A stretch of DNA of 29,967 bases from positions 1 through 29,967 of the IMG/VR virus record IMGVR_UViG_3300042307_002248; one strand, written 5' to 3'. Both the position numbers and the translations under genes were made by a program. Positions 1,590 to 29,967 of the stretch are shown piece after piece; positions within the stretch are counted from its first letter, which is position 1, and each line of letters starts with the position of its first letter. The notes under the pieces are model-generated. The model was not told the origin of the DNA and did not search any database. It saw nothing but the letters and a program-made list of their open reading frames with translations. Origin of the DNA: a virus.

Positions 1590-1597
1590 GTGTCAAC
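1590..1597 (-). promoter_or_regulatory. GTTGACAC box before the chimeric ORF
   Basis: Read on the minus strand, GTTGACAC ends 14 nt before the ATG at 1575. The same box at the same distance precedes the intact paralogue at 22745, so it was copied together with the 5' end of that gene. Its role is unknown. Confidence 0.5.
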
Positions 1598-3804: not shown

Positions 3805-3812
3805 GTGTCAAC
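3805..3812 (-). promoter_or_regulatory. GTTGACAC box before the wHTH gene
   Basis: GTTGACAC on the minus strand lies 14 nt before ATG 3790. Only about 40 bp separate the upstream terminator from this start codon. If the gene has its own promoter, that promoter must include or overlap this box. Confidence 0.5.
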
Positions 3813-3904: not shown

Positions 3905-5119
3905 TTACGCGGCGATAGCCAGGGGCAGCGCATCCAATGGCGTGACCGTGGCCGTGGCGACGGCAACGACCGGCGTCGGCAGGATGCCGAAGAACTGGTC
4001 GGCCTCGGCTGGCGTCTTGAGGTCGAGGTAGTGCTTGCGGATGATGCTCTCGGAATTACCCGCCTGGAGCGCCGCCTCGCCCATCGAGCGGTATTTGGCG
4101 ACGTGCATAGAAATGAACGTGTGGCGCATGATGTCGTGGGAGAGGCCGAACTTTTCGGCGATGCGCGCCCGCTGGTGTTGCAGGTTTTTAGGGATGATCG
4201 GGAAGCGGCTGATTGGGTATGCGGTTAACCAGGCGGCGAGGTTGGCGGGAATGGTGACGTTGCGCTTCATGCGGACTTTGGAGACCTCGGGCTCGATCAG
4301 GATGACTCCGGTATCGAGCCGGATGTGTTCGGGCTGAAGTTTGAAGATTTCACCGGTGCGCACACAGGGACGAATCCCGGCGAAGAGCGCCAAGGCGAAG
4401 AACGGCACCAATGCTCCGCCGTCGATCTGCTCAACGTGGCGCATGAGGGCGGCGGACTGCTCGGCGTTCAGGGTTTTGGCCGAACCGCGACGATGGGCGA
4501 TGCGTAGGTGGGGCACCTTTTCCAGCGGATTGGCAGCCACCCAGTCCTGACAGAAGGCGAACTTGAAAAAGGTGAACAGGATGCCACGCCGGTTGTTAAA
4601 GGTCTTCGGCTTGGGGGTGCCGCGGTGGCAATGGGCGGCGAGGACGTCGCGGGAGAGCTCCGCCATTGCTTTGCGGGGAAACCACTTTTTGAGGTCTTCG
4701 AGGCGGACGCGGATGTCCTTGAGCTGGCACTCGGACAGCATGCCGTTGGTGTTCTCTCTTTTCTTGGTTTCGAGGTAGGCGGCGACTGCGTCCGCCAGAG
4801 TGATCTCGCGTTCAGGGGCGCGGTAATTGGCGAGTGCGTACTCTAAATAGAACTCAAGCGACTTGGGCGCACCGGCCAGACGACGGAACGCGGCCTCGGC
4901 TTCGTGGAGCTGTTCGTCGGTTAAACGGGTGGCAGTGCTGCGGATGCCGGTATCGGACTGAGCCGCCTTAATATCTAGAGCGTCTTTCTCGGCGCCGGCC
5001 TCGACGCGGGTTTTGAAGTTCTTGCGGATGCGCAGGCCATGGAGGCGGCCATCGACTCGCCAGGAGGTGATGCCGTTACGGTTTACGAAGCGGGAAACGA
5101 TGAATGCGGACGGGGACAT
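3905..5119 (-). CDS. Tyrosine recombinase / phage integrase
   Basis: This 404-aa site-specific recombinase would catalyse integration and excision at the tRNA-Ser site next to it. Residues 1 to about 60 form an arm-binding region, about 105-200 a SAM-like core-binding domain (LADAVAAYLETKKREN), and 210-385 the catalytic domain. Visible catalytic positions are Arg250 (LFAGIRP), a Lys-containing beta-turn (SKVRMKRNV), the HxxR box His329/Arg332 (SHDIMR), and the nucleophile candidate Tyr364 (IRKHYLDL). The usual second His of LGH is Asn (AGNSES), as in the chimeric copy. The ATG at 5119 is preceded by TTGACAT 12 nt upstream. A terminator follows. The gene looks complete, and its last 80 codons are duplicated in the chimeric ORF at 370-1575. 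Confidence 0.93.
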   Translation of the reverse strand: MSPSAFIVSRFVNRNGITSWRVDGRLHGLRIRKNFKTRVEAGAEKDALDIKAAQSDTGIRSTATRLTDEQLHEAEAAFRRLAGAPKSLEFYLEYALANYRAPEREITLADAVAAYLETKKRENTNGMLSECQLKDIRVRLEDLKKWFPRKAMAELSRDVLAAHCHRGTPKPKTFNNRRGILFTFFKFAFCQDWVAANPLEKVPHLRIAHRRGSAKTLNAEQSAALMRHVEQIDGGALVPFFALALFAGIRPCVRTGEIFKLQPEHIRLDTGVILIEPEVSKVRMKRNVTIPANLAAWLTAYPISRFPIIPKNLQHQRARIAEKFGLSHDIMRHTFISMHVAKYRSMGEAALQAGNSESIIRKHYLDLKTPAEADQFFGILPTPVVAVATATVTPLDALPLAIAA

Positions 5120-5123
5120 GTGA

Positions 5124-5132
5124 AGGTTGCCA
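5124..5132 (+). promoter_or_regulatory. Candidate integrase arm-type site AGGTTGCCA
   Basis: This 9-bp sequence is repeated, inverted, at 5336-5344 and 5347-5355 on the other side of the att core. It lies between the integrase start codon and the core, and partly forms an AGGTTG...CAACCT inverted repeat ending at 5149. The position fits arm-type binding sites of tyrosine integrases, but the sites could also be repressor operators. Confidence 0.4.
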
Positions 5133-5139
5133 TGTCAAT
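5132..5139 (-). promoter_or_regulatory. TTGACAT box before the integrase gene
   Basis: ATTGACAT on the minus strand ends 12 nt before ATG 5119. It is a close variant of the GTTGACAC boxes before six other phage starts in this window, and it overlaps the putative arm site by one base. Confidence 0.4.
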
Positions 5140-5192
5140 TGGACAACCTAGTCAGCCCGTTTTGTTAAGTTGCTCAATGTGAGCGAGATAAC

Positions 5193-5217
5193 TGGCGGAG
5201 AGGGAGGGATTCGAACC
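5193..5217 (-). other. tRNA-Ser 3'-end fragment, attachment-site core
   Basis: Read on the minus strand, GGTTCGAATCCCTCCC followed by TCTCCGCCA is the T-arm, 3' acceptor strand, discriminator G and CCA of a bacterial tRNA-Ser. The 5' acceptor, D-arm and anticodon are absent from the adjacent DNA, so this is not a tRNA gene. It is the kind of 3'-end copy left when an element inserts into a tRNA gene. It sits 74 bp upstream of the integrase start. No second copy is visible in the window; the intact tRNA gene should lie at the far end of an element. Confidence 0.8.
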
Positions 5218-8529: not shown

Positions 8530-9413
8530 AGAGTACCGCAAAGAAAATCCTGATCGGGTTTGAAAAGCAGGCCATTGAACTGCCGTTGAGTGCGATACTG
8601 CCGATTCGGCAGGTGAAGCCGATGGACGCCGGTTTTGGGAAATACCGCACGCTGCTCGCGTCCATTAAGGCGATTGGACTGGTTGAGCCGTTGGTGGTGT
8701 ACCCGAACCGTGCCGAGCGAGGGACTTATTTGCTGCTCGATGGGCATATGCGGCTGAAGGCGCTGCAAGAAATTGGCAAGGAAAGCGGGCTCTGCCTCGT
8801 GTCGACGACTGACGATGCATTCACCTATAACGACAAGATAAGCCGCATTGCGATCATCCAAGAGCATCGGATGATCTTGCATGCTCTCAAAGAGGGCGTG
8901 ACGGAGGCGGAAATCGCCAAGGCGCTGGACATTGATGTGAGGACGGTGGGTTTGCGCAAACGGCTGCTGGTGGGCATCCACCCCGAGGTGGTGCAGATAT
9001 TAAAGGACAAACCGATCACGCAGAACGCACTCACGCTGTTTAAAAAAGTGAAGCCGCTGAGACAAATCGAGATGGCCCAGCTGATGGCCAGCGGGAACAA
9101 CTACACGTATGCCTATGTGCAGGCGCTGCTGGTGGGGACGAGTCGCGACCAAATGACGAAGTCGAACGTGCCGAAAAAAGTACGAGGCCTAGCGGCGGAA
9201 GATTTGGCACGGATGGAGCGGGAAATGGAATCGCTGGGACGCGACTACCGACTTTTCGAGGATCGTTATGGGGAAAATACGCTGCACCTCGGGGCGGCCC
9301 AGCGCTATGTGCGCAGGCTTTTGGAAAACGCCAAGGTGAAGCGCTTTTTGAATCAGCGACACCCGGAGATTTTGGAGGAGCTCCAAGAACTCGCGGCCCT
9401 CGACGCGTTATAA
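8526..9413 (+). CDS. ParB/RepB-like partition protein 2 (RepB C-terminal type)
   Basis: This 295-aa protein has the same overall plan as its upstream neighbour and the same length, but low similarity. Residues 18-120 resemble a ParB fold (LSAILPIRQVKPMDAGFGKY, LLLDGHMRLKALQEIG). An HTH region is seen at about 118-145 (EAEIAKALDIDVRTVGLRKR). The C-terminal half ends with NAKVKRFLNQRHPEILEELQ, as in 'plasmid partitioning protein RepB C-terminal domain' proteins. The ENxxR box is replaced by QEHRM (112-116), so ParB-type CTPase activity is doubtful. Two non-identical ParB-like proteins suggest a heteromeric complex; this is inference. It is the last gene of the operon. Confidence 0.82.
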   Translation: MKSTAKKILIGFEKQAIELPLSAILPIRQVKPMDAGFGKYRTLLASIKAIGLVEPLVVYPNRAERGTYLLLDGHMRLKALQEIGKESGLCLVSTTDDAFTYNDKISRIAIIQEHRMILHALKEGVTEAEIAKALDIDVRTVGLRKRLLVGIHPEVVQILKDKPITQNALTLFKKVKPLRQIEMAQLMASGNNYTYAYVQALLVGTSRDQMTKSNVPKKVRGLAAEDLARMEREMESLGRDYRLFEDRYGENTLHLGAAQRYVRRLLENAKVKRFLNQRHPEILEELQELAALDAL

Positions 9414-16047: not shown

Positions 16048-16059
16048 TTTACGCCGGAT

Positions 16060-19000: not shown

Positions 19001-19251
19001 TGGCGGAGCGTCCGGAAGTGTTGCGTACGATGGGCGATTTGACGCTTAAGCAGCTCGCGACCGAACTCACCGAGCAACTCCGTAACAGCACGTCGGTTGA
19101 TTGGCAGGTTCGAGAGAGTGTGCGGGCCAAGATGCGAATTTTGATCAAACGGCTGCTGCGAAAATATAAATACCCACCGGACGGACAGGACGAAGCGGTC
19201 GCGCGCGTCATCGAGCAAGCTGAGGCGCTGGCGGATGTGTGGAGTAAATAA
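16060..19251 (+). CDS. hsdR: Type I restriction-modification system, restriction/translocase subunit R
   Basis: The 1063-aa protein cleaves unmodified DNA after ATP-driven translocation, in complex with HsdM and HsdS. The N-terminal nuclease has RRPDIVVFVNG (Asp141) and SIIELKNP (Glu155, Lys157). Helicase motif I is HTQGSGKS (314-321), motif II is SDEAHRSQYG (DEAH at 423-426), and motif III is FTGTP (472-476). The second RecA lobe includes RDMWLTGFDAP and MQAIARVNRVF. The C-terminal helical part contacts HsdM. The length is normal and no damage is visible. The ATG at 16060 follows the TIR gene by 12 nt. Confidence 0.96.
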   Translation: MITEDQLEQQCLRWFEDTGWNVAFGPDIAHDGGTPERESYREVVLVGRLARALASLNPQIPPPVLDEALLRLLKLDHPVAEQRNRDFHRLLLNGLAVSWRQGDDVKHDHARLVDFTKPDANEFLVVNQFAIRGPQKTRRPDIVVFVNGLPLSIIELKNPTDENADVWKAYHQLQTYKEEVPDIFNYNEALIVSDGFTARVGSLTSDQGRFLPWRTVKNEDDKPVVEYEIEKIIRGFFDRALFLDYLKHFILFEQDGDRLVKKIAGYHQFHAVREAVRVTVIAAQAAASDSVEEPRASYGTEVVPGSRKAGVVWHTQGSGKSISMVCYAGKLIQQAEMKNPTIVVVTDRNDLDGQLYETFCQAQELLKQTPEQADSREELRQKLASRQAGGIIFTTVQKFSLDEGENEKHPVLCERSNVVVISDEAHRSQYGLKARLVNVRDKDTKLITGKKYVYGFAKYMRDALPEASFIGFTGTPIDKGDHDTRAVFGDYVSVYDIQDAVEDGATVEIFYESRLAKLDVNREEIEKLCAEVEEVVEDEEDLALRERTKGIWSTLEKLVGAKERTEEIAADLVKHFEARNAVITGKAMIVGMSREICARLYAAIIKLRPDWHSDDIEKGVIKVVMTGTASDIAAVRPHATTKRQKKRLEKRFKNPTDPLSLVIVRDMWLTGFDAPCCHTMYVDKPMKGHNLMQAIARVNRVFKDKPGGLVVDYIGITNDLKLALKVYAESKGRGEPSQSNKTGAKALPKLLSSLDACRGLFHGFDYSAYRIDPMALLVPAANHILDVKKLPDGKKRFLDLVAEITSAFALCGTLDEVAELKTEIAFFSAVKAAIVKYTTVDRKRTEAEKNTTLRRILDNAIISEGVADIFALAGLNKPNIGLLSTDFLQDVRNMPQKNLAVELLEKLLRDEIKAHTRSNVVLQKKFGDRLMEALRKYHNRAIETAQVIEELLKMAGDFKEALNRNDELGLGSDEIAFYDALAERPEVLRTMGDLTLKQLATELTEQLRNSTSVDWQVRESVRAKMRILIKRLLRKYKYPPDGQDEAVARVIEQAEALADVWSK

Positions 19252-19265
19252 ACCGGAGAATTTAT

Positions 19266-21167
19266 ATGACCAAACCTTTAGTTAGTTTCGACTCATTCCG
19301 TGCCGAGTGGCTTGCAGAAATCAAGGCCGGTAATCCATCGACTACGGCGAAGGGGCATCGCTTTACGCACAAGCTGATGACCGAGTGGCTCGACCTACCT
19401 GAAAACGGTCCGGAGTTGATCTATTGTGATGGAGCCGGAGACGGCGGGATTGATCTCGCCGTCTTGTTAAAGTCCGAGGATTCCAATGACGACACCATCA
19501 GCGGAGACACGTGGTATCTCGTGCAGGGTAAATACGGGACGGCGTTTACCGGAGAGGACACACTGATAAAAGAAGCCCGCAAAGTATTTGAGACCTTGTC
19601 GGGTGCGCGCCCTAGATTGCACTCGCTGGCTGAGGGATTGGTTGAGCGGCTGCGCATTTTTATGAAGTCGGCGTCGGAGCGGGATCGGCTCGTCCTCATT
19701 TTCGCTACCGTAGAACCCTTAACGCCGACAGAGCGGGATGCATTGGATGATGTGCAAACGCTAGGTCGCAAGCGGTTGGGCGCGTTTTTCAACGTCGAGG
19801 CGGTTTCAGTTGAAACAATCTTTGAAAACTTGGGAGACACGCCCACTGAGCCAGCAATTGGGCCAATTGATCTGGTCGCAGAGTTTGCCAGTTCCGGTGA
19901 ACATCTGTGGGTCGGCACGGTACGCTTGCGCAGCATCTACGAATTCCTCCAAGGCTACCGGGCGAAGTCAGGAGAACTTGATCGAATCTACGAAAAAAAT
20001 GTGAGGCGTTATCTAGGCGGACGCCGCAAGGTAAACGAGGCGATTCGGAACACTCTAGAGGATCAGCCCGAGCATTTCGGTTTGTTTAATAACGGTATCA
20101 CAATCGTCGCGCAGAAGGTGGATTCGGCTGCGGATAAGTTAGGGTTGACCACGCCTTACATTGTAAACGGGTGCCAAACCACGCGTACTCTTTGGGACGT
20201 GTTAGATCGACGGCTAGATGCTGGCGGAACAGGTGAGAACCCAGAGCTAAAAGCTTGGATAAAGCAACTCGATCACGGGTGTGTCGTGGTTAAAGTCGTG
20301 CAGGTTAACGAATCGAACGGAGCCTTGCTGACTGAAATCACCCGATTTACGAACAGTCAGAACTCTGTGACAGAAAAAGACTTTTTGGCGCTGACCGGCG
20401 ATTTCAAGACGTGGGCACGCGAGATGGCCGAGACGCATTGTATATTCTTGGAGATTCAACGCGGTGGGTGGGACTCGCAGAAAGCCTACCAGAAACAACA
20501 CCCTGAAACGCCCCAATTTAAGTCGGCGGCCAGCGCGTTCGGGTTGATGAAAGTCTATGGTGCCGGATGGCTGGAAGAGCCAGGCACAGCTTGGGGGAAA
20601 AACCCTCCGTTCTTGCCTGGTGGCACGATCTATAATGCCATCGTCAATCGAACTGATGGAAGCGAACGGGCATTTGGCGTAGAGGATTTCTATGCCGCAT
20701 ACTTGTTGGATACAGAGGCGGATCGGCTCAAATTTGGCCGTGGTGCGCAAACGCCAACCCGCGGATCGAGCCGGTATCTATTCTGTTTCGTCGTGATTTC
20801 ACTGCTCAAGGGCGTGATGTCGGCCGAGGGCATGGCAACGACTCATGAGCATATCACGAATGCAGTCATAAAAATCCTTTCCGCGAAGGATCGAGGCGCG
20901 GCGGAAGCACTATGTGACGATGCTGCTAACCTAATCGACGAATACCTTACGCAGGGCCAGCCCGAATCCACAAACACCGTAGAGAAAGAACCTGGGTTCG
21001 GTGGTGACCTAAATCAGTTCCTAAAATCGGATAAGTTGGCCAAGCCCACAGGCTCGTCCCCCAAATTGCTTACCCTCATAGCCGAATTCCGCAGAACTAT
21101 GTCGCGGGCCTCGAATGGGCAACCGTCGCCTCGATCTATAATTAAGAGCATTATAACCGCCGAATAG
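19266..21167 (+). CDS. AIPR-family abortive-infection protein with an N-terminal nuclease-like motif
   Basis: This 633-aa protein belongs to the AIPR (abortive infection phage resistance) family. The family core is visible as LFNNGITIVAQKV (273-285), YIVNGCQTTRTLWDVL (298-313) and ITRFTNSQNSVTEKDF (358-373). The N-terminal part has DGAGDGGIDLAV (Asp63) and WYLVQGKYG (Gln87, Lys89), the arrangement of Mrr-like PD-(D/E)XK nucleases, so it may cut nucleic acid. An AGGAG-like site (CCGGAGAAT) precedes the ATG, and hsdR ends 14 nt upstream. AIPR genes are often found beside restriction systems. Here the spacing suggests a true operon member. Confidence 0.85.
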   Translation: MTKPLVSFDSFRAEWLAEIKAGNPSTTAKGHRFTHKLMTEWLDLPENGPELIYCDGAGDGGIDLAVLLKSEDSNDDTISGDTWYLVQGKYGTAFTGEDTLIKEARKVFETLSGARPRLHSLAEGLVERLRIFMKSASERDRLVLIFATVEPLTPTERDALDDVQTLGRKRLGAFFNVEAVSVETIFENLGDTPTEPAIGPIDLVAEFASSGEHLWVGTVRLRSIYEFLQGYRAKSGELDRIYEKNVRRYLGGRRKVNEAIRNTLEDQPEHFGLFNNGITIVAQKVDSAADKLGLTTPYIVNGCQTTRTLWDVLDRRLDAGGTGENPELKAWIKQLDHGCVVVKVVQVNESNGALLTEITRFTNSQNSVTEKDFLALTGDFKTWAREMAETHCIFLEIQRGGWDSQKAYQKQHPETPQFKSAASAFGLMKVYGAGWLEEPGTAWGKNPPFLPGGTIYNAIVNRTDGSERAFGVEDFYAAYLLDTEADRLKFGRGAQTPTRGSSRYLFCFVVISLLKGVMSAEGMATTHEHITNAVIKILSAKDRGAAEALCDDAANLIDEYLTQGQPESTNTVEKEPGFGGDLNQFLKSDKLAKPTGSSPKLLTLIAEFRRTMSRASNGQPSPRSIIKSIITAE

Positions 21168-21191
21168 TCGGACGGGATTGTAAAACCATCC

Positions 21192-21902
21192 ATGAAAACC
21201 ATTTACAACCTCTACTGTGACGAGAGCTGTCACCTCGAACACGATCACCAGAAGGCGATGGTGCTGGGAGTTGTTTGGTGCCCGGAGGACAAGGCGCGTG
21301 CGATTGCCGAGCGACTGCGTGAAATCAAACAGGCGCACGGATTATCTGCCACATTCGAGGCGAAGTGGACGAAGGTCTCGCCGGCGAAAGTAGATTATTA
21401 CCTAGCGGTCATCGACTATTTCTTCGACGCCGACGATTTGCATTATCGTGCGTTGGTGGTGCCGGATAAGTCGAAGCTTACCCATGACAAGTTCGGGCAT
21501 GATCACGACACCTGGTACTACAAAATGTATTTCCAGCTTCTCAGTGTGCTGTTTAACCCGGATTCCCATTACCGTATATACTTAGACATCAAGGACACGG
21601 TTGGCAGTGCGAAGGTGACGAAACTCCATGATGTGCTTTGCAAGAGTCAGTATGATTTTGACCGACAAATTATCGAACGGGTGCAGACCGTGCGGAGCCA
21701 TGAGATTGAGCAACTCCAGGTGTGTGATCTACTCTCCGGGGCCTTGGCCTACGTGCATCGCGGACTTACGGGGAGTGCCGCCAAACAACAGTTGATCGAG
21801 CGGATTAAGCACCGGTCGGGATTGCAGCTGACCCGCAACACGCTGCTGCGGGCGCGGAAGTTCAACCTGTTTTGCTGGGAGGCAGGGCAGCCAAGCGTAT
21901 GA
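21192..21902 (+). CDS. DUF3800-family protein
   Basis: The 236-aa protein shows the DUF3800 pattern: an N-terminal strand with an acidic motif (YNLYCDESCH; Asp10, Glu11), a central RIYLDIKDT strand, and a C-terminal QLQVCDLLSGALAY helix (Asp179). The layout suggests an RNase H-like metal-dependent fold, but no activity is established to my knowledge. DUF3800 genes are common in mobile and defence regions. It begins 24 nt after the AIPR stop and its TGA overlaps the next ATG (ATGA), which pairs it with the following small gene. Confidence 0.85.
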   Translation: MKTIYNLYCDESCHLEHDHQKAMVLGVVWCPEDKARAIAERLREIKQAHGLSATFEAKWTKVSPAKVDYYLAVIDYFFDADDLHYRALVVPDKSKLTHDKFGHDHDTWYYKMYFQLLSVLFNPDSHYRIYLDIKDTVGSAKVTKLHDVLCKSQYDFDRQIIERVQTVRSHEIEQLQVCDLLSGALAYVHRGLTGSAAKQQLIERIKHRSGLQLTRNTLLRARKFNLFCWEAGQPSV

Positions 21903-22399
21903 GCGAACTACCCGCATTGGTGGAAGTGGATGATTTTCCCGGTGAGGATTTTGTCGCGCGTTTTAGAGCCTATCTGGACGGCATCTACGGGATTTACCTG
22001 AGCGAAGTCGCGCGAGGTGGGCTTACGTTTAAAGGCCAAAAGGTGAGTTGCCGGTTTCAACCCGAGACCTTCGGCAAGCATTACGCCTTTTGGCACATGA
22101 TGCAGGAAGGGCGTATAGAGGACGACCGGACGGCCGATCCCGAGCGCTGCAAGCGGGTGCGGTGGATTGCGTGGGTGATCAAGGCCGCAGAGGCCGCTGA
22201 TCCGCGGGTGAAGGTGTTTCCAGAACAGAAACGCGGTACGGATCAGCCGTGGGCGCTCTGGATGGAGGAGGCGAATTACGTAGTGATTCTATGGGAGCGT
22301 AACGGCTACTATTTGTTGAAAACCGCGTTTCCCGTCAGCTACGCAGGAACACTCAAGGCGTTGAAGCGGGACTGGATGCTCCATAACCAAGGCCGCTAA
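21899..22399 (+). CDS. Unrecognised protein, possible RelE/Barnase-fold nuclease
   Basis: The 166-aa protein begins MSELPALVEVDDFPGEDFVA at ATG 21899, overlapping the DUF3800 stop by 4 nt. A longer frame from 21872 would overlap that gene by 31 nt and is less likely. Its end (EANYVVILWERNGYYLLKTA, then FPVSYAGTLKALKRDW) has the alternating strand and helix pattern of small RelE/colicin/Barnase-like RNases. This is a weak resemblance only. A mid-region WHMM...ERCKRVRWIAWV precedes it. The two genes look like a pair at the end of the defence operon; toxin or partner of DUF3800 are both possible. Confidence 0.6.
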   Translation: MSELPALVEVDDFPGEDFVARFRAYLDGIYGIYLSEVARGGLTFKGQKVSCRFQPETFGKHYAFWHMMQEGRIEDDRTADPERCKRVRWIAWVIKAAEAADPRVKVFPEQKRGTDQPWALWMEEANYVVILWERNGYYLLKTAFPVSYAGTLKALKRDWMLHNQGR

Positions 22400-22435: not shown

Positions 22436-22550
22436 GAAAATTCCTTTCACACATGGTGAATGAACAGGGTCAACATCGGCACTTTTTCCGGAAAATCAAG
22501 TTTTTCGTGTTACTCGCAACTGGACAATGGGTTGAGAGTAATTGACCCGG

Positions 22551-22745
22551 TCAGGGTTTGAAGGAGTCGTTGGGTTTGCCGTCGTCGGCGAGGTCACCGA
22601 AGTGGTTCACGGCGTCTTTGAGTAGGGAGGCGGCGGCAAAGACGGTCAGGCCGATGGGCGTGCCGGACAGGGGGCCGGCGATGGTGAGGGCGAGGCCAGC
22701 GGCTTTGCCAAGGAAGGAGAGGATGCGGAGGAGTTTGGTGGGCAT
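22551..22745 (-). CDS. Small hydrophobic phage protein (intact copy)
   Basis: The 64-aa protein from ATG 22745 starts MPTKLLRILSFLGKAAGLAL and continues TIAGPLSG, then GLTVFAAASLLKDAV. The two hydrophobic stretches (about 5-25 and 31-43) suggest a membrane-associated protein. It lies at the end of the phage head gene run and could be a holin-like or accessory protein; no family recognised. An AGGGAGG site precedes the ATG, and GTTGACAC ends 14 nt before it. Its first 28 codons were copied into the chimeric ORF at 1575. It is the last phage gene before the defence island. Confidence 0.6.
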   Translation of the reverse strand: MPTKLLRILSFLGKAAGLALTIAGPLSGTPIGLTVFAAASLLKDAVNHFGDLADDGKPNDSFKP

Positions 22746-22759
22746 ACCTCCCTGGAACG

Positions 22760-22767
22760 GTGTCAAC
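22760..22767 (-). promoter_or_regulatory. GTTGACAC box before the small phage gene
   Basis: The box ends 14 nt before ATG 22745, with a good ribosome-binding site (AGGGAGG) in between. Here, therefore, the box is not a substitute for the ribosome-binding site. Confidence 0.5.
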
Positions 22768-22782
22768 CGGCGGACGGATTTC

Positions 22783-22829
22783 GGAGGGGTTACACTGAGG
22801 CGGATGGGAGGTCGGATGAGGGCACGGAG
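22783..22829. repeat. Dispersed phage intergenic repeat, copy C
   Basis: GGGGTTACACTGAGGCGGAT continues into GGGAGGTCGGATGAGG. It matches copies A (1653-1713) and B (2650-2710). It lies between the two small phage genes, probably its original place. Confidence 0.7.
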
Positions 22830-22847
22830 TAGCAAGGCAGGCCAGAA

Positions 22848-23045
22848 TCAGTCTTCGGGGGCGGGCTTGGCGTTGCGGTCGCGTACTTCCCGGCGGATGC
22901 GCAGGCAGAGGTAAACCAGAGTCGCGAGGCCGACCATCAGGCCGACGTAGGCGTTGAGGCGTTCGAGGGTCGTGAACGCGAAAAAGCCGACCGCACCGTG
23001 ATACGGCACGGGGTCGCGGAGAATGGAAAGGGTGGCGGGGAGCAT
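22848..23045 (-). CDS. Small single-span membrane protein, holin-like (copy 2)
   Basis: This 65-aa protein is almost identical to the one at 3105-3302 (MLPATLSILRDPVPYHGAVG; membrane span LNAYVGLMVGLATLVYLCL; tail RIRREVRDRNAKPAPED). It follows the capsid-gene terminator on the minus strand, so it needs its own promoter or readthrough. Its upstream DNA is G/C-rich repeat without the GAGTAGN tract seen at the other copy. Holin is a guess from size and topology. Confidence 0.65.
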   Translation of the reverse strand: MLPATLSILRDPVPYHGAVGFFAFTTLERLNAYVGLMVGLATLVYLCLRIRREVRDRNAKPAPED

Positions 23046-23074
23046 GGCGGCGGGGGGACGGTGGACGGGGGCAT

Positions 23075-23108
23075 AAAAAGGGGCGGCGGTCGTGGTGACC
23101 GGCCGCCC
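23075..23108 (-). terminator. Rho-independent terminator after the capsid gene
   Basis: On the minus strand GGGCGGC-CGGTC pairs with GACCGCCGCCC around ACCAC (one bulged C), followed by CTTTTT. It is 26 bp after the capsid stop and ends the head-gene transcript. Confidence 0.8.
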
Positions 23109-23133
23109 GTGGTGCGCTCTTTGTGGGTGGCGA

Positions 23134-24036
23134 TTAGCTGGCGGTGAGCTTGCGGGCGCAGACCGGGCTGGTGACGCGGATGTCTTCGCTCCAGTCCACC
23201 GCAAGGATGTCGGACCGGGCGGCGTCGTCGCGGTAGGTGCGGACGACGTCCACCCCACCCCGGCGTAACCGGAAGGTTTTCATAAAGCTAGGGTCGTAGA
23301 GCGTCGGGCTGGCGTTCGCATGGAAGATCACCAGTTGCTGGCCGATGATGTTCACGTTGGCTTTGACGCCGCCCAACTTGGTCGTGTCCTTGGCCAAAAT
23401 ACCGACGCGGATGTCAATGCTGGGGTTGAGCAGTAGCGAGCTGAACTGGGCCATACTCACCCCGATCGAGGCCGCACCGGGGAAGCGAGCGATCACTTTG
23501 GCGTTGTTGCGCAGCTTGTTCCAGAGCGGCAGGCCAATCACCAGGCGGTTTGGCATGCGGCCGGTGTCAGTCGCGAGGGACTCGATTTGCTCGTCGAGTT
23601 TGGCGATGGGGTCGTCACTCGCCAGAGTGATGTTGGCCGCGGCCGCCAGCGAGGTCAGCGCGGCAAACACTTTGGCTTCGTGGGAGGTGACGGCGGAGGA
23701 GACGAGGGTTTGGGTTTTCGCCTCTTCCAGGCGGAGGGGATCGCCTTGGCCGGCTTCGTCGCGTTCGTGGTCGTCGATGGCGATTTCCAACGCCTGCGGG
23801 AGACAGTTGTAGGTGGGGTCGCTGGCCGCGAATTCCAGGCGTTTGGCGGGACCGCCGACGGCGCGCGAGGTGTCGATCACCTGGAAGGTGTTCTTGTCGT
23901 CGAAGTTTTTATATTGGCCGGTGGCGGCCGGGACAACCACCTCGGGGGCGAGGAAGTTAGCGAGCGTAGCGGAGAGGTCTTGCGACAGGCCGCGGGCGTA
24001 GTTGGTCAGGGTGACGTTGTATTTGGAGGAGGACAT
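23134..24036 (-). CDS. Phage major capsid protein
   Basis: The 300-aa protein starts MSSSKYNVTLTNYARGLSQD. It contains a capsid-like N-arm (FLAPEVVVPAATGQYKNFDD), a central helix (LRLEEAKTQTLVSSAVTSHE) and the stretch RLVIGLPLWNKLRNNAKVIA, typical of HK97-fold capsid P-domains. The C-terminal strand region is RRGGVDVVRTYRDDAARSDI. It forms the virion shell. Order after protease and decoration-like genes supports this. No ribosome-binding site is seen before the ATG; a heptanucleotide repeat lies directly upstream. Confidence 0.8.
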   Translation of the reverse strand: MSSSKYNVTLTNYARGLSQDLSATLANFLAPEVVVPAATGQYKNFDDKNTFQVIDTSRAVGGPAKRLEFAASDPTYNCLPQALEIAIDDHERDEAGQGDPLRLEEAKTQTLVSSAVTSHEAKVFAALTSLAAAANITLASDDPIAKLDEQIESLATDTGRMPNRLVIGLPLWNKLRNNAKVIARFPGAASIGVSMAQFSSLLLNPSIDIRVGILAKDTTKLGGVKANVNIIGQQLVIFHANASPTLYDPSFMKTFRLRRGGVDVVRTYRDDAARSDILAVDWSEDIRVTSPVCARKLTAS

Positions 24037-24043
24037 TTTTTTG

Positions 24044-24080
24044 AAGTAGCGAGTAGCGGGTATTGAGTAGCGAGTAGTCG
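24044..24080. repeat. Degenerate heptanucleotide repeat, GAGTAGN type
   Basis: Units AAGTAGC, GAGTAGC, GGGTATT, GAGTAGC and GAGTAGT lie between the capsid start codon and the upstream decoration-like gene. The spacing to the ATG is only about 8 nt. Confidence 0.75.
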
Positions 24081-24097
24081 GATGCGGAGGACGGAGG

Positions 24098-24490
24098 TTA
24101 GGCGGCGGGGGTGTAGGTCGGGACGTAGAGGGCGGCTTCGATCAGTTCACCGGTTTTCCCTGCTTCGAGGGCCACCCCGACGACCATCCGCGGGGCGTCG
24201 TTGCTGTAGCCTTCAACGCAGCCGGTGGAGGTGAGTTGCAGCAGTTCCCCAAAGCTGATCGGGCCGTAAATTTTCACTCGGACCGTACCCGCAAGTCCGC
24301 CGGGAATCGCCAAGGTCACGCGTTCGTTGGCTTTGCCGCCCGTAAGAAGCAGCCCGAGGGGTTTTTCGAGGGCGTAATCAACCAGGCAGATGCTTTCGTT
24401 GTTACTAATCCGAACGAACCGGCCTTCTTGGCCGGTCAGATCGACGTCGGCGACAACCGAGATAATGGCATTGGTGCGGGTAAGGTGCAT
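24098..24490 (-). CDS. Head decoration-like protein 2 (paralogue)
   Basis: The 130-aa protein starts MHLTRTNAIISVVADVDLTG and has the core KPLGLLLTGGKANERVTLAI, then PGGLAGTVRVKIYG. It ends with a TGELIEAALY strand. It is a clear paralogue of the next gene upstream (shared LTG..GRF, KPLG, GGLAGTVRVK, TGELxEA). Small beta-rich proteins beside the capsid gene are usually decoration or capsid-stabilising proteins (DUF2190-like); the exact family is uncertain. Confidence 0.65.
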   Translation of the reverse strand: MHLTRTNAIISVVADVDLTGQEGRFVRISNNESICLVDYALEKPLGLLLTGGKANERVTLAIPGGLAGTVRVKIYGPISFGELLQLTSTGCVEGYSNDAPRMVVGVALEAGKTGELIEAALYVPTYTPAA

Positions 24491-24493
24491 GGG

Positions 24494-24533
24494 AATGAGC
24501 TGGGAGCTATGAGCTTGGAGCTGTGAGCCGGGC
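24494..24533. repeat. Degenerate heptanucleotide repeat, GAGCTNN type
   Basis: Units GAGCTGG, GAGCTAT, GAGCTTG, GAGCTGT and GAGCCGG follow one another exactly between the stop of one decoration-like gene (24534) and the start of the next (24490). Confidence 0.8.
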
Positions 24534-24929
24534 TTAGGTGAGGGATTGGGGGGCGATGAGGATGGCTTCGACGAGTTCGCCGGTGACGCCGGTTTCGAGG
24601 GCTTGCGCTACGAGAGTGCGGGCACCGGTGCCGGCGTCGGTTTGAACGCGGCCGTCAGCAGTGGTTTGCAGGAAGGCTCCAACGGTCGAAACCGTGGCGG
24701 CGAGTTTGACGCGGACGGTGCCAGCGAGGCCGCCGGCGCCGAGGGCGACGGTGACGCGTTCATCGGCTTTGCCGTCACAGAGGAGCACGCCGAGGGGTTT
24801 GACGGTGGCCGAGCTGAGGAGGGTGGCTTTGCCTGCGGTGAGGATGATGAAGCGACCAACGTAACCGGTGAGGTCGCCGTTGGCTTCGAAGGACAGGATC
24901 GCGTTGGGACGGGCGAGAGAGGTTTTCAC
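24534..24929 (-). CDS. Head decoration-like protein 1 (paralogue)
   Basis: The 131-aa protein is read from GTG 24929 (MKTSLARPNAILSFEANGDL). It has the same core as its downstream paralogue: KPLGVLLCDGKADERVTVAL, GGLAGTVRVKLAA and TGELVEAILI. A tandem duplication is the simplest origin, and the two copies have diverged to well under half identity by eye. The probable role is a capsid decoration protein. A GAGCTNN repeat occupies the short upstream gap, and no ribosome-binding site is evident. Confidence 0.65.
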   Translation of the reverse strand: MKTSLARPNAILSFEANGDLTGYVGRFIILTAGKATLLSSATVKPLGVLLCDGKADERVTVALGAGGLAGTVRVKLAATVSTVGAFLQTTADGRVQTDAGTGARTLVAQALETGVTGELVEAILIAPQSLT

Positions 24930-24935
24930 GGGAAA

Positions 24936-24966
24936 ATGAGCTGGGAGCTAAGAGCTAGGAGCTGAG
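24936..24966. repeat. Degenerate heptanucleotide repeat, GAGCTNN type
   Basis: Units GAGCTGG, GAGCTAA, GAGCTAG and GAGCTGA fill the gap between the scaffold stop (24967) and the decoration-like start (24929). Confidence 0.8.
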
Positions 24967-25437
24967 TTAGCGGAAGAGCTCGGGGGATTCGGCCTTGGCT
25001 TTGGCGTAGATGGTTTGGAAATCGGCGCTGGGGTGAGCGGCGCGGATGGTGGCTAACTTCTGCTCTTGGCGGGTGATTTGGCTGGCGGGAGTGGCGGTGT
25101 CATCAGTGCCGGTGGTGAGGCGGGCGAGCACGGGGTTGATCGTGAGCGATTCGAGGGCTTTCACCGCTTTGGTTTCGTCACGGAGGAGCGCATCGACCCA
25201 GAAACCGCGGGTGTCGGTGTCCTTGGCAGGCAGGCGACCGGCGTGCACGGCGGCATCGACGTGGGCCTCGGCGCGGTGGCGGGCCTGGGCCGCCATGATC
25301 AATTTGAGCCCGGCGAGTTCGCTTTTGAGCGCGGTGGCGTGGCGGGTCACTTGGGCAACGAGGTCGGCTTCGTCGGTGGCAGAGGCTTCGACGAGCGAAA
25401 GAGACCGGAGGGTGGAGATAAGGTTTTGCATGGGCAT
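24967..25437 (-). CDS. Proposed internal-start scaffold protein (Mu gpZ-like)
   Basis: In phage Mu the scaffold Z is made from an internal start inside gene I and shares its C-terminus. Here an in-frame ATG at 25437 (MPMQNLISTLRSLSLVEASA) is preceded 13 nt upstream by GTTGACAC, the box seen before other phage starts in this window. It would give a 156-aa helical scaffold. The box falls inside coding sequence (PVDTV codons), so chance must be considered. Confidence 0.5.
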   Translation of the reverse strand: MPMQNLISTLRSLSLVEASATDEADLVAQVTRHATALKSELAGLKLIMAAQARHRAEAHVDAAVHAGRLPAKDTDTRGFWVDALLRDETKAVKALESLTINPVLARLTTGTDDTATPASQITRQEQKLATIRAAHPSADFQTIYAKAKAESPELFR

Positions 25438-25542
25438 CGACTCAGCCACCGTGTCAACCGGCGCGGCGGCGAACAGGGGCGCGATGCGCTTGAATGCGGC
25501 GCGATTGACCAAGCCGCCCATGTTGATTTCGGAGCCGGTCAC
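24967..25542 (-). CDS. Mu gpI-like protease, C-terminal (scaffold) half
   Basis: The 191-aa frame from GTG 25542 reads TGSEINMGGLVNRAAFKRIA at once, which in Mu-like gpI proteins is the direct continuation of the protease domain. The rest is helical and charged (QVTRHATALKSELAGLKLIM, ITRQEQKLATIRAAHPSADF), typical of scaffold. The GTG overlaps the TGA of the upstream half (GTGA), one base out of frame. Either translation is coupled, or a -1 shift makes a full protein of about 335 aa, or an old frameshift split the gene. No obvious slippery heptamer is present. A separate scaffold start is proposed at 25437. Confidence 0.7.
   Translation of the reverse strand: MTGSEINMGGLVNRAAFKRIAPLFAAAPVDTVAESMPMQNLISTLRSLSLVEASATDEADLVAQVTRHATALKSELAGLKLIMAAQARHRAEAHVDAAVHAGRLPAKDTDTRGFWVDALLRDETKAVKALESLTINPVLARLTTGTDDTATPASQITRQEQKLATIRAAHPSADFQTIYAKAKAESPELFR
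25451..25458 (-). promoter_or_regulatory. GTTGACAC box inside the protease gene
   Basis: The box lies 13 nt before ATG 25437, inside the reading frame of the longer protein, as expected for the signal of an internal start. Confidence 0.45.
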
Positions 25543-25976
25543 TTGGCCGGAGCGTCCAGGTGGAAGGTCGGCGAGAATCGGCGGAAGGTGCGGCCTTCGA
25601 CCGACTTTCTACCCGCGTCGGACCAGTCGAGGCGGGCGCGGACGCCGCCGGTCTGCGGGTCGTCACCAGCCCAGTAAAATTCAGTCGGCCAGGCGGAGGC
25701 TTCGCGATCCTCGTGGTTGAAATCGAAAAAGGGCCGGTCTTCGCGGCCCTCGGCAGCGGCGGTGAGTTTACCGGCGAGGAAGGTTTGCAGGACGGCAGCG
25801 GTGGCGGCGTTCACTGCCACTTCGACCGAGACGGGTTTGCCGCCTTGGGACGCCCGGATGCGGTGGCGGCCGGGCGGCATGTATTGGATGTCGGTGGGAA
25901 GCGCGGCGCCTTCGGTCAGGGCGTTGGCGAAGGCGGCGTGTAACGGTGCGTTTTTGTTGGTGGTGGTGAGGGCCAT
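25539..25976 (-). CDS. Mu gpI-like prohead protease, N-terminal half
   Basis: The 145-aa protein from ATG 25976 contains IQYMPPGRHRIRASQGGKPV, PFFDFNHEDREASAWPTEFY and VEGRTFRRFSPTFHLD. These are hallmark stretches of the Mu-like gpI protease family, which processes scaffold and capsid during head maturation. It ends early at a TGA overlapping the GTG of the C-terminal half. Family members run on without a break at this point. Whether the short form is an active protease is unclear. A GTTGACAC box lies 12 nt before the ATG. Confidence 0.75.
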   Translation of the reverse strand: MALTTTNKNAPLHAAFANALTEGAALPTDIQYMPPGRHRIRASQGGKPVSVEVAVNAATAAVLQTFLAGKLTAAAEGREDRPFFDFNHEDREASAWPTEFYWAGDDPQTGGVRARLDWSDAGRKSVEGRTFRRFSPTFHLDAPAK

Positions 25977-25988
25977 ACCACGCGCGCA

Positions 25989-25996
25989 GTGTCAAC
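25989..25996 (-). promoter_or_regulatory. GTTGACAC box before the protease gene
   Basis: The box ends 12 nt before ATG 25976 and lies in the 30-bp gap after the portal stop. No Shine-Dalgarno sequence is visible between box and ATG. Confidence 0.5.
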
Positions 25997-26005
25997 GGGT
26001 GGCGA

Positions 26006-27616
26006 TTACTTGGGCGGCTGGTAGCTGGCTTTGGGGACCCGGATCAGGGAGCTGCGGCAGTTGTAGTGTGCGGGCGGTGGCGAAAACCAACCGTCTCCCC
26101 AGCGGTGACCATGGCGACCGAGACAGATTTCGGTGGTGCGGCCGTCGAGGACCGCGTCCCAGACGAGGTAATCTCCGGCGGCTTCGGCCTGGGCGAGTTG
26201 CGCGGGGAAAGCCGATTCTGCGGCAGCTTGGCGGCCGGCGAGGGATGCGGCGGACTCGGAGGCCGCGTCGATGGGATCGCCACAACCGCAGGCGCAGGGT
26301 TTGGACTTGGCAGGTGGCACGGACGACGTCGGCACCAACGGGGCGATGGGTTTGGCCGGCTGAAATAGTGCTTCGCTCGGGGCTGGCGACGGGACCTTGT
26401 GGCGTTCGTACAGGTATTGCAGGGAGACCGGGAGGCCCATGTCGACGAACAGGGTTTTGTCACGGGTGGCCATTTCCTGCTCACGCTCGGGGCGGGTGAT
26501 TTCAACTTCGACGAACGGGACCTCGTCGGCAGTGCCCCAGTTCTGGGCGATCAACTGGGGGATAAGTTGGTCGTTGAGGACGGCGACGATGTATTCGGCG
26601 TAGGTCTCGAAGAGGTCCAACTCCACTTCGCGGTGAACCTGAGTCGCGGCCCGACTACCTTCGCCGTTGTGTTCCACCGATAAGTTTTGACCCAAAAGCA
26701 TGATGTCACAGGCGCGGTCGGCGATGCCCATGAGGCGTTCGCTCGGGTCGTTGGGACCGGACACGCCGGGCGTCGTGCCCTGCATGATTTGCAGGTTGGT
26801 GCCCTGGGGAAACGCGCCCCATGACGCCGTGCCCATGTTGCGCAGGGCGGAGGTGATGGCGTCGATTTCGAGCTGGGTGGCGGTAGCTGGATAGTTGGCC
26901 CAACGTAACGGCGTCCCGAAAAGTTCAGCCTTCTGGACGAGCCACTCCCAACCAAGCATGTGACCGAGCCAAAGCGGTGCCAGCGCGCGGAGTTGGGCGG
27001 CTTCACCGAGGGCGCCTGACTTGGACTGAAAGATGCCGGTGAGGAATTTTCCGGGGTGTTTGGCGAAGGGGGTGAGCTTCCGATCTGAAGTGGCGACGTT
27101 GTTCCCGTTGAGGCGGAGTGCGAGGGTGCCGTCGGTGTCGATGCCGAGGTAACGGGTTGGCACGCGGCGGAAACCCACCGGCACGACGTAACCGGCGGTG
27201 TCGTTGGTCCAGTCGATTTCCACCACGGACAGGCCGCGGGCAACGGCGTCCATCAGTTCGTAAACAGCCGAACCGAGCGGGGCGCGGGTGGTGTCCACGT
27301 AACCGCGTTGCAGATGGAGCGCCGACTCGACGAAGGCGGCTTTTTCCTGCGCCGTGGCCGACGGTTTGCCGTTCTTTGGGGTGTAGGGCTGGACGTTGAG
27401 CGGCAGCTTGCGGATGGCATTTTTGAGCTTTTGCAGGTTGGCGCGGAGACGCGGCCAGGTGTCTTCCATCAGGTTGAACAGGTCACTTTGCGCGGCGAGG
27501 TCACCGCGGGCGCCGGAGTCGAGGAGTTCGCCAATGGCGTCGGGCGAGAGGGAGCGGCCGAAGAGTTGCGGTTCAAAGTCGCGAGCGGTGGGGCGAATGA
27601 TGGGTGATGGTGACAT
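26006..27616 (-). CDS. Mu-like (DUF935) portal protein with a gpF-like C-terminal tail
   Basis: The 536-aa protein starts at ATG 27616 (MSPSPIIRPTARDFEPQLFG). Residues 1 to about 400 are DUF935/Mu gp29 portal: VARGLSVVEIDW, VPVGFRRVPTRYLGID, WLVQKAELFGTPLRWANYP, GQNLSVEHNGEGSRAATQVH. A Cys-rich linker (CACGCGDP) follows. The last 100 residues (DAVLDGRTTEICLGRHGHRW, then PPPAHYNCRSSLIRV) match the end of Mu gpF/gp30-type minor head proteins, usually a separate gene. The portal forms the dodecameric DNA channel, and the fused tail may join head assembly. A longer frame to 27697 runs through a heptad repeat and is rejected. Confidence 0.88.
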   Translation of the reverse strand: MSPSPIIRPTARDFEPQLFGRSLSPDAIGELLDSGARGDLAAQSDLFNLMEDTWPRLRANLQKLKNAIRKLPLNVQPYTPKNGKPSATAQEKAAFVESALHLQRGYVDTTRAPLGSAVYELMDAVARGLSVVEIDWTNDTAGYVVPVGFRRVPTRYLGIDTDGTLALRLNGNNVATSDRKLTPFAKHPGKFLTGIFQSKSGALGEAAQLRALAPLWLGHMLGWEWLVQKAELFGTPLRWANYPATATQLEIDAITSALRNMGTASWGAFPQGTNLQIMQGTTPGVSGPNDPSERLMGIADRACDIMLLGQNLSVEHNGEGSRAATQVHREVELDLFETYAEYIVAVLNDQLIPQLIAQNWGTADEVPFVEVEITRPEREQEMATRDKTLFVDMGLPVSLQYLYERHKVPSPAPSEALFQPAKPIAPLVPTSSVPPAKSKPCACGCGDPIDAASESAASLAGRQAAAESAFPAQLAQAEAAGDYLVWDAVLDGRTTEICLGRHGHRWGDGWFSPPPAHYNCRSSLIRVPKASYQPPK

Positions 27617-27626
27617 GGGAGGGCGG

Positions 27627-27680
27627 AAGTAGTGAGTAGCGGGTAGCGAGTAGTGAGTAGTGAGTAGATCGGAGGTCGGA
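27627..27680. repeat. Degenerate heptanucleotide repeat, GAGTAGN type
   Basis: Units AAGTAGT, GAGTAGC, GGGTAGC, GAGTAGT, GAGTAGT and GAGTAGA run between the terminase stop (27685) and the portal ATG (27616). Confidence 0.8.
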
Positions 27681-27684
27681 AGCG

Positions 27685-29085
27685 TTACCGCGTCCAAGCG
27701 CAGCGGTAGCGGGTGAGTGCGGGGCGGTGGCGGGCGTTGAGGCCGGTTGGGACTCGTTCAGCTGCGAAGGCACCGGTGCCAGCGGAGGGGTTGCGTTGGG
27801 CGGCATGGATTGCGAGGGCCAGTGCGGTGGAGCGGTCGGCGTGGCCGTCAGCAGTGCGGGCGGCGGCGTAGCGGATCGTGCCGCCTGGGCTGACTATCCG
27901 TTGCATGCTGCCGAGGTCGTCACGGATCACGGCGGCAGCGGGCAATGAAACTGTACGCGCTTGCAGTGCTTTTTTGAGCCGTTCGAACAACTCCCGTTTG
28001 CGGTCGCTGGTGAAGGTCACGCCTTCGAAGCGGGTTTCGTCGAGGGCTGAGGCAAGGTGTTCGCTCACGGGTCCGCCGATGCCTGTCGCGTCGATCGCGG
28101 TGAAGGCTGCCGCCATCACTCGGGGGAGGAGGATTTCCTCTTGTTGCGGGAACGGCACGCGGTCCAACACGAGTACTTCTCGGGTGATGAGTTGGCCTCC
28201 GTGCAGACGTTCGAGGGTCCAAGCTACGGTTAGATCCCGTTTTCGACCGACGTCGATGCCGATAAAAAGTGCGGGTCGTGGCCTTGAAACTAGAGAAAAA
28301 AGGCCCGTAAGCGGATCGAGTGTAGCTTCCTCACATTCACAGCCTCTGACTAGCTCTGCTGGGAAAACCTGCGACGAGTGCTCCATGAATTGGCACTCGA
28401 ACTCCTGTGCCCAACCTTCGGGATCGGCCAAGTTGGCCCGCAGTTCGTCCACGTTGAGGGCAAGCCCCTGCGCCACCGCGTCGTAGACACTGGTCTTGTG
28501 GCGCGAGAACGCCGGAGCGTGCTCCCACAGGTCAAAATACTTGTTGTTACGCCCCGCTGGTGTGGAGATCACCCGCAGTTTCAAGGCACCGCGTAGCGGG
28601 TTGGAGATGATCGGGTAAACGGCGCGCCAGATTTCCTCGGGGTTTTCGTGAAACGCGAACTCGTCCAGTACCAGGTTGGCCGAGTAACCACGGGCGGTGG
28701 AGGGATTGGCGGGGAGTGCGATGACGCGGGCCCCGTTGGGGAAGCGTAGCTGCGACTTCTGGATCTCAGGGCGGTACTCTTGGCCGGTCGAGTAGCTGAC
28801 CGCGTCACAGAAAATACCGGCGGCGCGGTTCACTTTGTCCATAAACTCCAACGCTTGCCGCTCACCGGCGCTCAAAATAACCCAATCGCCACCCGTTTCT
28901 ATGGCGTCGGCCACCACCTCGAAGGACGCGGCCAGCGAGCCGCCAATCTGTCGCGATTTGAGCCAGATTTTGAATCGGGCTTTGTCCTGCACCCAAGCGC
29001 GTTGGTAGGGCAAAAGGAGATCGAGAGGCGTGACCGCGAGGCGGCGGTCCGGCTTGTACGGCTTTTTCGGCGCGGCGCGGCTCAT
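27685..29085 (-). CDS. terL: Phage terminase large subunit
   Basis: The 466-aa protein packages DNA with an ATPase domain and cuts it with an RNase H-like nuclease. The ATPase has KSRQIGGSLA (42-51), an altered Walker A in which the usual Lys of GKS is Gly, with Lys43 nearby. Walker B is LVLDEFAF (138-145), followed by the coupling motif VISTPAG. The nuclease acids are Asp278 (FIGIDVGRK), Asp332 (IDATGIGG) and Asp417 (GHADRSTALA). The ATG at 29085 overlaps the terS stop (ATGA). The longer frame to 29148 lies inside terS and is not used. Confidence 0.93.
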   Translation of the reverse strand: MSRAAPKKPYKPDRRLAVTPLDLLLPYQRAWVQDKARFKIWLKSRQIGGSLAASFEVVADAIETGGDWVILSAGERQALEFMDKVNRAAGIFCDAVSYSTGQEYRPEIQKSQLRFPNGARVIALPANPSTARGYSANLVLDEFAFHENPEEIWRAVYPIISNPLRGALKLRVISTPAGRNNKYFDLWEHAPAFSRHKTSVYDAVAQGLALNVDELRANLADPEGWAQEFECQFMEHSSQVFPAELVRGCECEEATLDPLTGLFSLVSRPRPALFIGIDVGRKRDLTVAWTLERLHGGQLITREVLVLDRVPFPQQEEILLPRVMAAAFTAIDATGIGGPVSEHLASALDETRFEGVTFTSDRKRELFERLKKALQARTVSLPAAAVIRDDLGSMQRIVSPGGTIRYAAARTADGHADRSTALALAIHAAQRNPSAGTGAFAAERVPTGLNARHRPALTRYRCAWTR

Positions 29086-29609
29086 GGCGTAGTCGTCGCA
29101 CTCACTGGTAACGCGGGCGCTTCGCTGGCACCGAGGCGCGAACGCCACTCGCGCATGATGTCTTTTTCGCGGTCAGGCGTGATGTTGACCTGAGTCGCCA
29201 CGACGGTGGTCGGCTGGTCGCGGTAGGTGTCGGGCTTATGGGCCTTCAAAAAGAAGATTAAGCAGGCGTCGGAGTAGCGTTTGCGCTCACCGCATTGCTG
29301 GCCCTTGGCGTCGAACACCGGCTCGCTCCACCCGTCGATGCCACGGCGCTTGAGTTCGAGCTCGGCCTCCTCGATGCGGGAGGCGTTACGGACGCGGTCA
29401 CGCTCGAGCTGGGCCGATTGAAGGACCGGCACGAGGTCAGGCTGGCGCTGCAAGTGGCGGTAGAACGTGGACTGGTCGATGCCTTCTTTCTCGATGGCGT
29501 TGAGCGATGGCGAACCGTCGCGGATGTCCTGCACGACGCGGTCAAAGAGCGCTTGGCTAAACTTGGGCGAGCGGCCGAGCTTGGCGGCTTTGGGTACGGC
29601 GATGGGCAT
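29082..29609 (-). CDS. terS: Phage terminase small subunit-like protein
   Basis: The 175-aa protein from ATG 29609 starts MPIAVPKAAKLGRSPKFSQA. It has a helix-turn-helix-like N-terminal region (GSPSLNAIEKEGIDQSTFYR), then a long charged helix (QLERDRVRNASRIEEAELEL) and a short C-terminal part. It would recognise phage DNA and recruit TerL. It overlaps terL by 4 nt. The frame runs upstream to 29834, but that part is repeat-like and lies above a GTTGACAC box 13 nt before the chosen ATG. Confidence 0.8.
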   Translation of the reverse strand: MPIAVPKAAKLGRSPKFSQALFDRVVQDIRDGSPSLNAIEKEGIDQSTFYRHLQRQPDLVPVLQSAQLERDRVRNASRIEEAELELKRRGIDGWSEPVFDAKGQQCGERKRYSDACLIFFLKAHKPDTYRDQPTTVVATQVNITPDREKDIMREWRSRLGASEAPALPVSATTTP

Positions 29610-29622
29610 TGTGTAAGGCGAC

Positions 29623-29630
29623 GTGTCAAC
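29623..29630 (-). promoter_or_regulatory. GTTGACAC box before terS
   Basis: The box ends 13 nt before ATG 29609, the first gene of the packaging run seen here. No Shine-Dalgarno sequence lies between them. Confidence 0.5.
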
Positions 29631-29967
29631 GGGCGGGCGCTCGCCCAACGGGATGAAAGGGAGGGCGGAATAAGCGCGCGCAGGCGGATTTGGCGGTGGT
29701 TCGAAAACGCGCTGGTGGCTCGGGGCTCGGGGTTCGAGGTTCGGGGCGGGCGTAGCCCGCCTCGGGCGCGGAGTCGGGCCGCGGCGAGGCTGGGCGAGCA
29801 CGGCACGACGGAGCCGCGTGCCAGGGGCACGCAAAGCGCGCCGAGTCGCCAGCGGAGCGATGCGGCGAGGACGCGCGGGGCCACCGCGCCGGCTGGGCGG
29901 CGGGGGGAAGCTCCCCCCGTGAACGAGCTTGCGAGTGAACTTGGGGGGGCGCCTGGCGGCCGGCCGG
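29631..29967. other. GC-rich region upstream of terS, with a heptad repeat and a strong hairpin
   Basis: No gene is supported in this stretch. A heptanucleotide repeat of the GGNTCGN type (units GGCTCGG, GGCTCGG, GGTTCGA, GGTTCGG) lies at 29717-29750. A perfect 8-bp hairpin CGGGGGGA-AGC-TCCCCCCG lies at 29901-29919. The open frames here on the minus strand are composition artefacts of very high GC content. Confidence 0.55.

Follow-up and report, generated by a model that had tools for sequence, protein, structure and literature searches.

In the 29,967-nucleotide window analysed here (positions 1 to 29,967 of the IMG/VR virus record IMGVR_UViG_3300042307_002248), the gene on the minus strand between 25976 and 24967 is probably a nested protease/scaffold gene of the Mu I/Z type that has lost one base in this lineage, and in which the start of the free scaffold is marked by a box. 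In phage Mu, genes I and Z encode a protease with a scaffold nested in the same frame. According to the arrangement favoured by our comparisons, the full frame would give a fusion of protease, hinge and scaffold, with the scaffold alone arising from a second hinge start, the ATG at 25437 and/or the one at 25431. The loss of one base late in the protease domain ends the full product after 145 residues, and the scaffold start, located 105-111 bases downstream of the break, is unaffected. The motif TTGACAC, 13 nt upstream, would mark this free scaffold start; the same signal is placed 12-14 nt before the genes of the terminase small subunit (TerS), the protease and a small ORF, and in a host with few Shine-Dalgarno (SD) sites it would have a probable role in start selection or regulation.

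Two frames make up the gene in the window. The protease half (25976..25539) stops early, giving 145 residues that end in RRFSPTFHLDAPAK before the stop codon, and matches the head maturation protease family phrog_328 (E 2.2e-6); PF10123, scanned against this half from the window only, gave E 2.3e-4 and 21.2 bits, under its cut-off of 25.2. The second frame, of 191 residues from a GTG (25542..24967), contains the last strands of the protease domain, the hinge and the scaffold, and matches phrog_2976, also a head maturation protease family (E 6.6e-6, residues 67-154). This frame is at -1 relative to the first, and the stop of one overlaps the start of the other as GTGA (25542..25539). A sequence-only reading of the window had described the frames split at this overlap, the GTTGACAC box (25458..25451) and an in-frame ATG (25437..25435), all of which are present on the minus strand, and had proposed that the family continues through the break point, which the relatives bear out. 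Retrieval with each half gave 51 loci (L002-L052, a set in which several entries repeat a contig), and in 48 of these, representing 35 distinct DNA versions, the motif that spans the junction lies in one open frame. Of the other three, L009 is broken at the same place as the window, and L041 and L042, both distant, have an open frame that lacks the motif. In L041 and L042 a distant protease homologue lies inside an open frame of 812 residues that has no GGLVNR motif.

When aligned with 14 continuous relatives, the window and L009 are one base short in the stretch 25546..25556. The idea that the split is an organised feature of the family does not hold in this alignment, since it is shared by L009 only and the relatives are continuous. 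The dN/dS values obtained against L002 and L003 were 0.06-0.13 for the N-terminal half, the C-terminal half and the scaffold, and 0.15 and 0.26 for the stretch of 37 codons before the scaffold (4 amino-acid and 5-8 silent changes). Both halves would have been under purifying selection until the recent past, and the lesion would therefore be recent. The invariant N152, the GGLVNR motif (154-159) and the predicted strands 146-148 and 154-157 are all downstream of the break, which we take to be the loss of the full-length protease, leaving a protease that would be inactive. As judged from these comparisons, the break is a recent lineage-specific lesion and not a designed split.

It is unlikely that the break is instead a sequencing or assembly error in a gene that is intact in nature. 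Such an error would fit a record of the metagenome type, the intact frame of all other relatives and the strong purifying selection on both halves; against it, the stretch is not a homopolymer run, and the break is also present in L009, a second contig with another IMG/VR dataset number (IMGVR_UViG_3300042446_002878) that is 99.94% identical to the window, with three mismatches and no gaps over 4865 bases. A frame error is unlikely because these two separately named contigs, three SNPs apart, both carry the break, and the deletion is probably a real allele; L009 could nevertheless share its sample with the window or derive from a linked one, and the break could then be an error common to one read set. 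The junction sequence of the window was found in no contig besides L009 in the viral collection searched, from which records very near the window may be omitted.

The scaffold start is located at the hinge. A methionine following GGLVNR.AF is present in 31 of 32 sequences (the window and 31 relatives), down to 35% identity, and the only sequence that lacks it, L050, has a longer insert. Two ATG codons are found in this region of the window. The first (25435..25437), proposed in the sequence-only reading as the scaffold start, is indeed in frame and shows the same kind of spacing, 13 nt, as is seen at the other boxes; however, it is present in only 12 of 19 close sequences, whereas the second (25429..25431) is present in all 19 and is the best conserved start of the scaffold. 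In the seven close sequences that lack the first ATG, the distance from box to ATG becomes 19. In several relatives protease and scaffold occupy different frames or ORFs: L033 has an ATGA overlap between the protease stop and the scaffold ATG, L031 starts its scaffold in another frame with an ATG that overlaps the protease end, and in L030 and L034, as well as in PunC9, the scaffold is a separate ORF. The arrangement of L031 or L033 could result from frame errors in single contigs; L030 and L034 are not so explained. The lowest synonymous variation of the gene is found at the hinge, and a value as low anywhere in the gene was reached in 318 of 10000 permutations (19 rows, L010 omitted); where valine is changed to isoleucine at the hinge, with GTT or ATT, the letters of the box are preserved. 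The model of the intact relative L002 shows a folded domain, a disordered hinge (159-181) and a helical scaffold from residue 182 (mean pLDDT 75, pTM 0.44); a PDB fold search with this prediction gave nothing better than E 0.19, so that the protease fold is unconfirmed by that route. SD-like stretches ahead of the internal ATG are weak in the close group and clear in L036, L038 and L039. In 28 of 29 sequences the region of the internal start is less folded (of higher energy) than the average of the gene; the window is the exception (z of -0.8, versus a mean of 1.1 in the relatives). The claim that a free scaffold arises from an internal start thus gains support from the hinge methionine, the separate frames of relatives, the low synonymous variation and the box associated with the start; the nested start is probably real, and we infer that the scaffold is produced from it.

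The window gene sits in a virus-like island of a Verrucomicrobia-type bacterium. In the window, one island extends from TerS as far as the att-like site at 5217-5193, beyond which a second, degenerate island follows; the head genes, the two small ORFs, the att-like site, the integrase 3905..5119 and the boxes described below are on the minus strand. The head genes begin with those of TerS (29082..29609; phrog_4044, E 2e-17 on the longer ORF 29082-29834), the terminase large subunit, TerL (27685..29148; PF03237, E 8e-20), and a Mu-type portal fused to a gpF-like end (26006..27697; PF06074, E 1e-64; PF04233, E 7e-4). After the protease/scaffold gene there are two ORFs of the family phrog_673 (24534..24929, E 8e-13, and 24098..24490, E 2e-12), which PHROG labels as a head scaffolding protein and whose position suggests a decoration protein for the first of them, then the major capsid protein (23134..24036; phrog_1005, E 5.5e-36). 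Two small ORFs complete this part: one of 65 residues (22848..23045), membrane-protein-like by eye and kept after the capsid gene in relatives, whose homologue has no PHROG match, and one of 64 residues (22551..22745), with a box of its own. The defence cargo at 10758-22399 includes type I restriction-modification genes and an AbiU-like protein, and a pair formed by a replication-protein-like gene and phrog_3732, also found in island A (see below), is part of the cargo of the window. At 6080-9413 a serine recombinase is followed by two ParB-like genes, the same trio being present at the right end of island V006. The right end of the island is at 25 att-like bases that resemble the 3' end of a tRNA-Ser gene (5193..5217). 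Directly past this site, the degenerate island (1-5193) carries a tyrosine integrase (3905..5119), 70% identical to that of island A, and copies of the post-capsid small ORFs; its fused ORF 370-1596 ends in the C-terminus of a second integrase.

Complete islands were delimited in related genomes. Strain IMCC26134 carries island B, at a tRNA-Glu gene with a 25-bp attachment repeat (37.1 kb), and island A, at a tRNA-Ser gene with an imperfect repeat of 24-25 bp (37.2 kb); island V006 is at a tRNA-Glu gene with a 29 bp repeat (37.4 kb). These three show attL/attR pairs, while the window shows one island end only. The order of genes is integrase, replication genes (Sak4-like, helicase, primase and RusA-like), TerS, TerL, portal, protease/scaffold, phrog_673 ORF, capsid, two small ORFs and a variable cargo. 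In B this cargo consists of Ssp genes, in the window of type I restriction and AbiU-like genes, and in V006 and A of restriction-type genes. The PHROG scans took in 21 proteins of B outside the head genes, 18 of V006, 8 of the cargo of A, and the head genes and 10 cargo proteins of the window. No tail module was recognised in B, V006 or the cargo of A in these scans, which left aside small ORFs and the head genes of B and which divergent tail genes would escape. Two ORFs matched tail-labelled families, one of 332 residues in V006 (phrog_7043, E 9e-12), which also matches hydrolase families and is of the metallo-beta-lactamase type by eye, and one of 195 residues in B (phrog_27577, E 0.003), which also matches DUF3102; both were judged unrelated to tails. 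Of the sheath and tape-measure families tested, PF04984 matched one of 11 (G003, off the island contig) and PF10145 none of 11; the latter test is insensitive, since PF10145 also failed to match in G184 and G227, which probably have tails. Of 387 genomes sampled from the phylum, 46 have capsid protein homologues, some of which (in G184 and G227) lie in apparent tailed prophages. In G003 the capsid gene occurs several times, as copies or fragments, on contigs C46, C47, C54 and C80, which suggests repeated integration. The islands of two records titled Akkermansia muciniphila (L043 and L047) are of almost the same type as the islands of IMCC26134; the isolate names of these records suggest lake samples, so the titles may be wrong.

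The TTGACAC box is found six times in the window, each time on the coding strand and 12-14 nt upstream of an ATG: before the scaffold (25451..25457, inside GTTGACAC, 13 nt from the ATG at 25437), the protease (25989..25995, 12 nt), TerS (29623..29629, 13 nt from the ATG at 29609), the small ORF 22745-22551 (22760..22766, 14 nt), an ATG in the degenerate island (3805..3811, 14 nt) and the second copy of the small ORF (1590..1596, 14 nt). A variant, TTGACAT, lies 12 nt ahead of the integrase ATG (5132..5138). For the form TTGACAC-N12-14-ATG, 0.10 occurrences were expected and none of 100 shuffles reached six. The bare motif was expected 2.8 times and six were reached in 8 of 100 shuffles, so that its count is not rare and the non-random aspect is its placing. 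In islands A, B, V006, Erk, Akk and V012 the motif is found mostly before TerS, the protease, the scaffold or the 64-residue ORF, with the exception of one copy inside the integrase of B, one inside the portal of A and one on the other strand in Akk. Among 52 distinct contexts, host and distant sequences included, the first ATG was found at 12-14 nt in 36 and at 19 nt in five, the latter being the scaffold boxes of the group without the first ATG; the remaining 11 comprise one each at 8, 15 and 21 nt and eight with no ATG. Matches to the TTGACAY form numbered two in L055, three in L063 and two in L061, where 0.04-0.09 were expected, and two were reached in 1 of 200 shuffles of L061. The DNA upstream of the protease box in V006, L013 and L045 is unrelated to that of other islands, and the box and its 12-nt spacing are retained. 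The box is absent before TerL (which was not scored), the capsid gene and the phrog_673 ORF. Distant marine-type relatives (V010 and PunC9) have no such site either, and the box is therefore dispensable for nesting as such. On this pattern of occurrence, the GTTGACAC box looks functional.

Given that TTGACAC includes TTGACA, the box could be read as the -35 hexamer of a promoter, which would make the internal start transcriptional; this is rather improbable. In 22500-29967 no sigma-70-like pair was found (0.8 expected), and a sigma-70 promoter was rejected for this reason; moreover, a transcript start 35 bases downstream would land inside the genes, past their ATGs, and in 400 kb of host DNA from IMCC26134 none of 12 TTGACAC had an ATG at 12-14 nt. 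A role of the box in translation is also preferred here over a promoter with a very short leader, in which the transcript would start between the box and the ATG. In IMCC26134, an SD-like stretch was seen at 10 of 163 ATG-starting ORFs chosen by a crude procedure, and PMC10783764 names this strain as SD-scarce.

Regarding the GTGA junction, it had also been suggested that the C-terminal half is translationally coupled to the first. A split by design, in which termination and reinitiation at GTGA couple the two halves into a two-chain protease, is very unlikely. GTGA is a usual coupling overlap, and the N-terminal part retains the invariant H88 and S135, for which a catalytic role may be proposed. 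However, this was rejected as the main reading because the split is not conserved, being limited to the window and L009; the break also interrupts the protease domain ahead of its final strands, the GTG at 25542 is preceded by no box and no SD-like stretch, and the other relatives with a split divide at the hinge. The overlap needs no selection because at this point the second half encodes Val-Thr with the ordinary codons GTG ACC, which contain TGA in the frame created by the deletion, and the unbroken gene of L003 has identical letters at this site; from these letters, the overlap is best seen as a by-product of the deletion. That programmed -1 frameshifting unites the frames is scarcely credible: the C-terminal frame does lie at -1, but no slippery heptamer of the form X XXY YYZ was seen by eye at the junction, for which this reading was rejected, the arrangement is not conserved and the nearest relatives need no shift.

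The nested protease/scaffold gene resembles genes I and Z of Mu in its N-terminal protease, its C-terminal scaffold, the single frame of most relatives and the hinge methionine, and a Mu-type portal with a gpF-like end adjoins it, as in Mu. It differs in that the frame is broken in the window and L009 and in having a start box 12-14 nt upstream that is common to other genes; unlike Mu, the islands show no transposition or tail module. Capsid-forming PICIs (cf-PICIs), as PMC10690885 and PMC10803314 describe them, integrate site-specifically, carry their own replication genes, terminases, portal, protease and capsid, lack tails and measure about 14 kb. Set against that description, the islands are alike in having an integrase and att sites at a tRNA gene, their own TerS, TerL, portal, protease and capsid, and no tail genes recognised in PHROG scans; they differ in their size (37.1, 37.2 and 37.4 kb versus about 14 kb), Mu-type head genes, about 15 kb of defence cargo, a verrucomicrobial host phylum and no known helper. 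Also in contrast with cf-PICIs as described there, the stretch from the capsid gene to the cargo showed no recognised head-tail connectors, although connectors too divergent for PHROGs would escape. The apparent tailed prophages of the same phylum in G184 and G227 have homologous terminase and capsid genes (capsid 36-52% identical); however, downstream of their capsid gene come long tail-like genes, one of which is an ORF that is tape-measure-like by length and position and has no PF10145 match. In gene content, these 37-kb defence-carrying islands with a head module integrated at tRNA genes resemble capsid-forming satellites. Searches with a coverage short of most subscription journals returned no paper on TTGACAC with phage, and none on phage satellites of Verrucomicrobia or Verrucomicrobiota.

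The split that drew attention is, taken alone, an ordinary lesion; of all the parts, the box is the one that deserves work. It is tentatively proposed, as one possible interpretation, that TTGACAC-N12-14-ATG is an island-specific start signal that sets the output of packaging genes, including the free scaffold, in a new family of tail-less, capsid-coding and defence-carrying islands of Verrucomicrobiota, whose particles would be completed by the tails of a helper phage. This gives a testable rule, namely that TTGACAC is placed 12-14 nt before chosen start codons of the islands, including one that is internal to a gene. Should the box act in translation, it would be a non-Shine-Dalgarno start signal in IMCC26134, a host listed as SD-scarce. 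The islands, for their part, would extend capsid-forming satellites to another phylum, as 37-kb units that carry whole defence systems.
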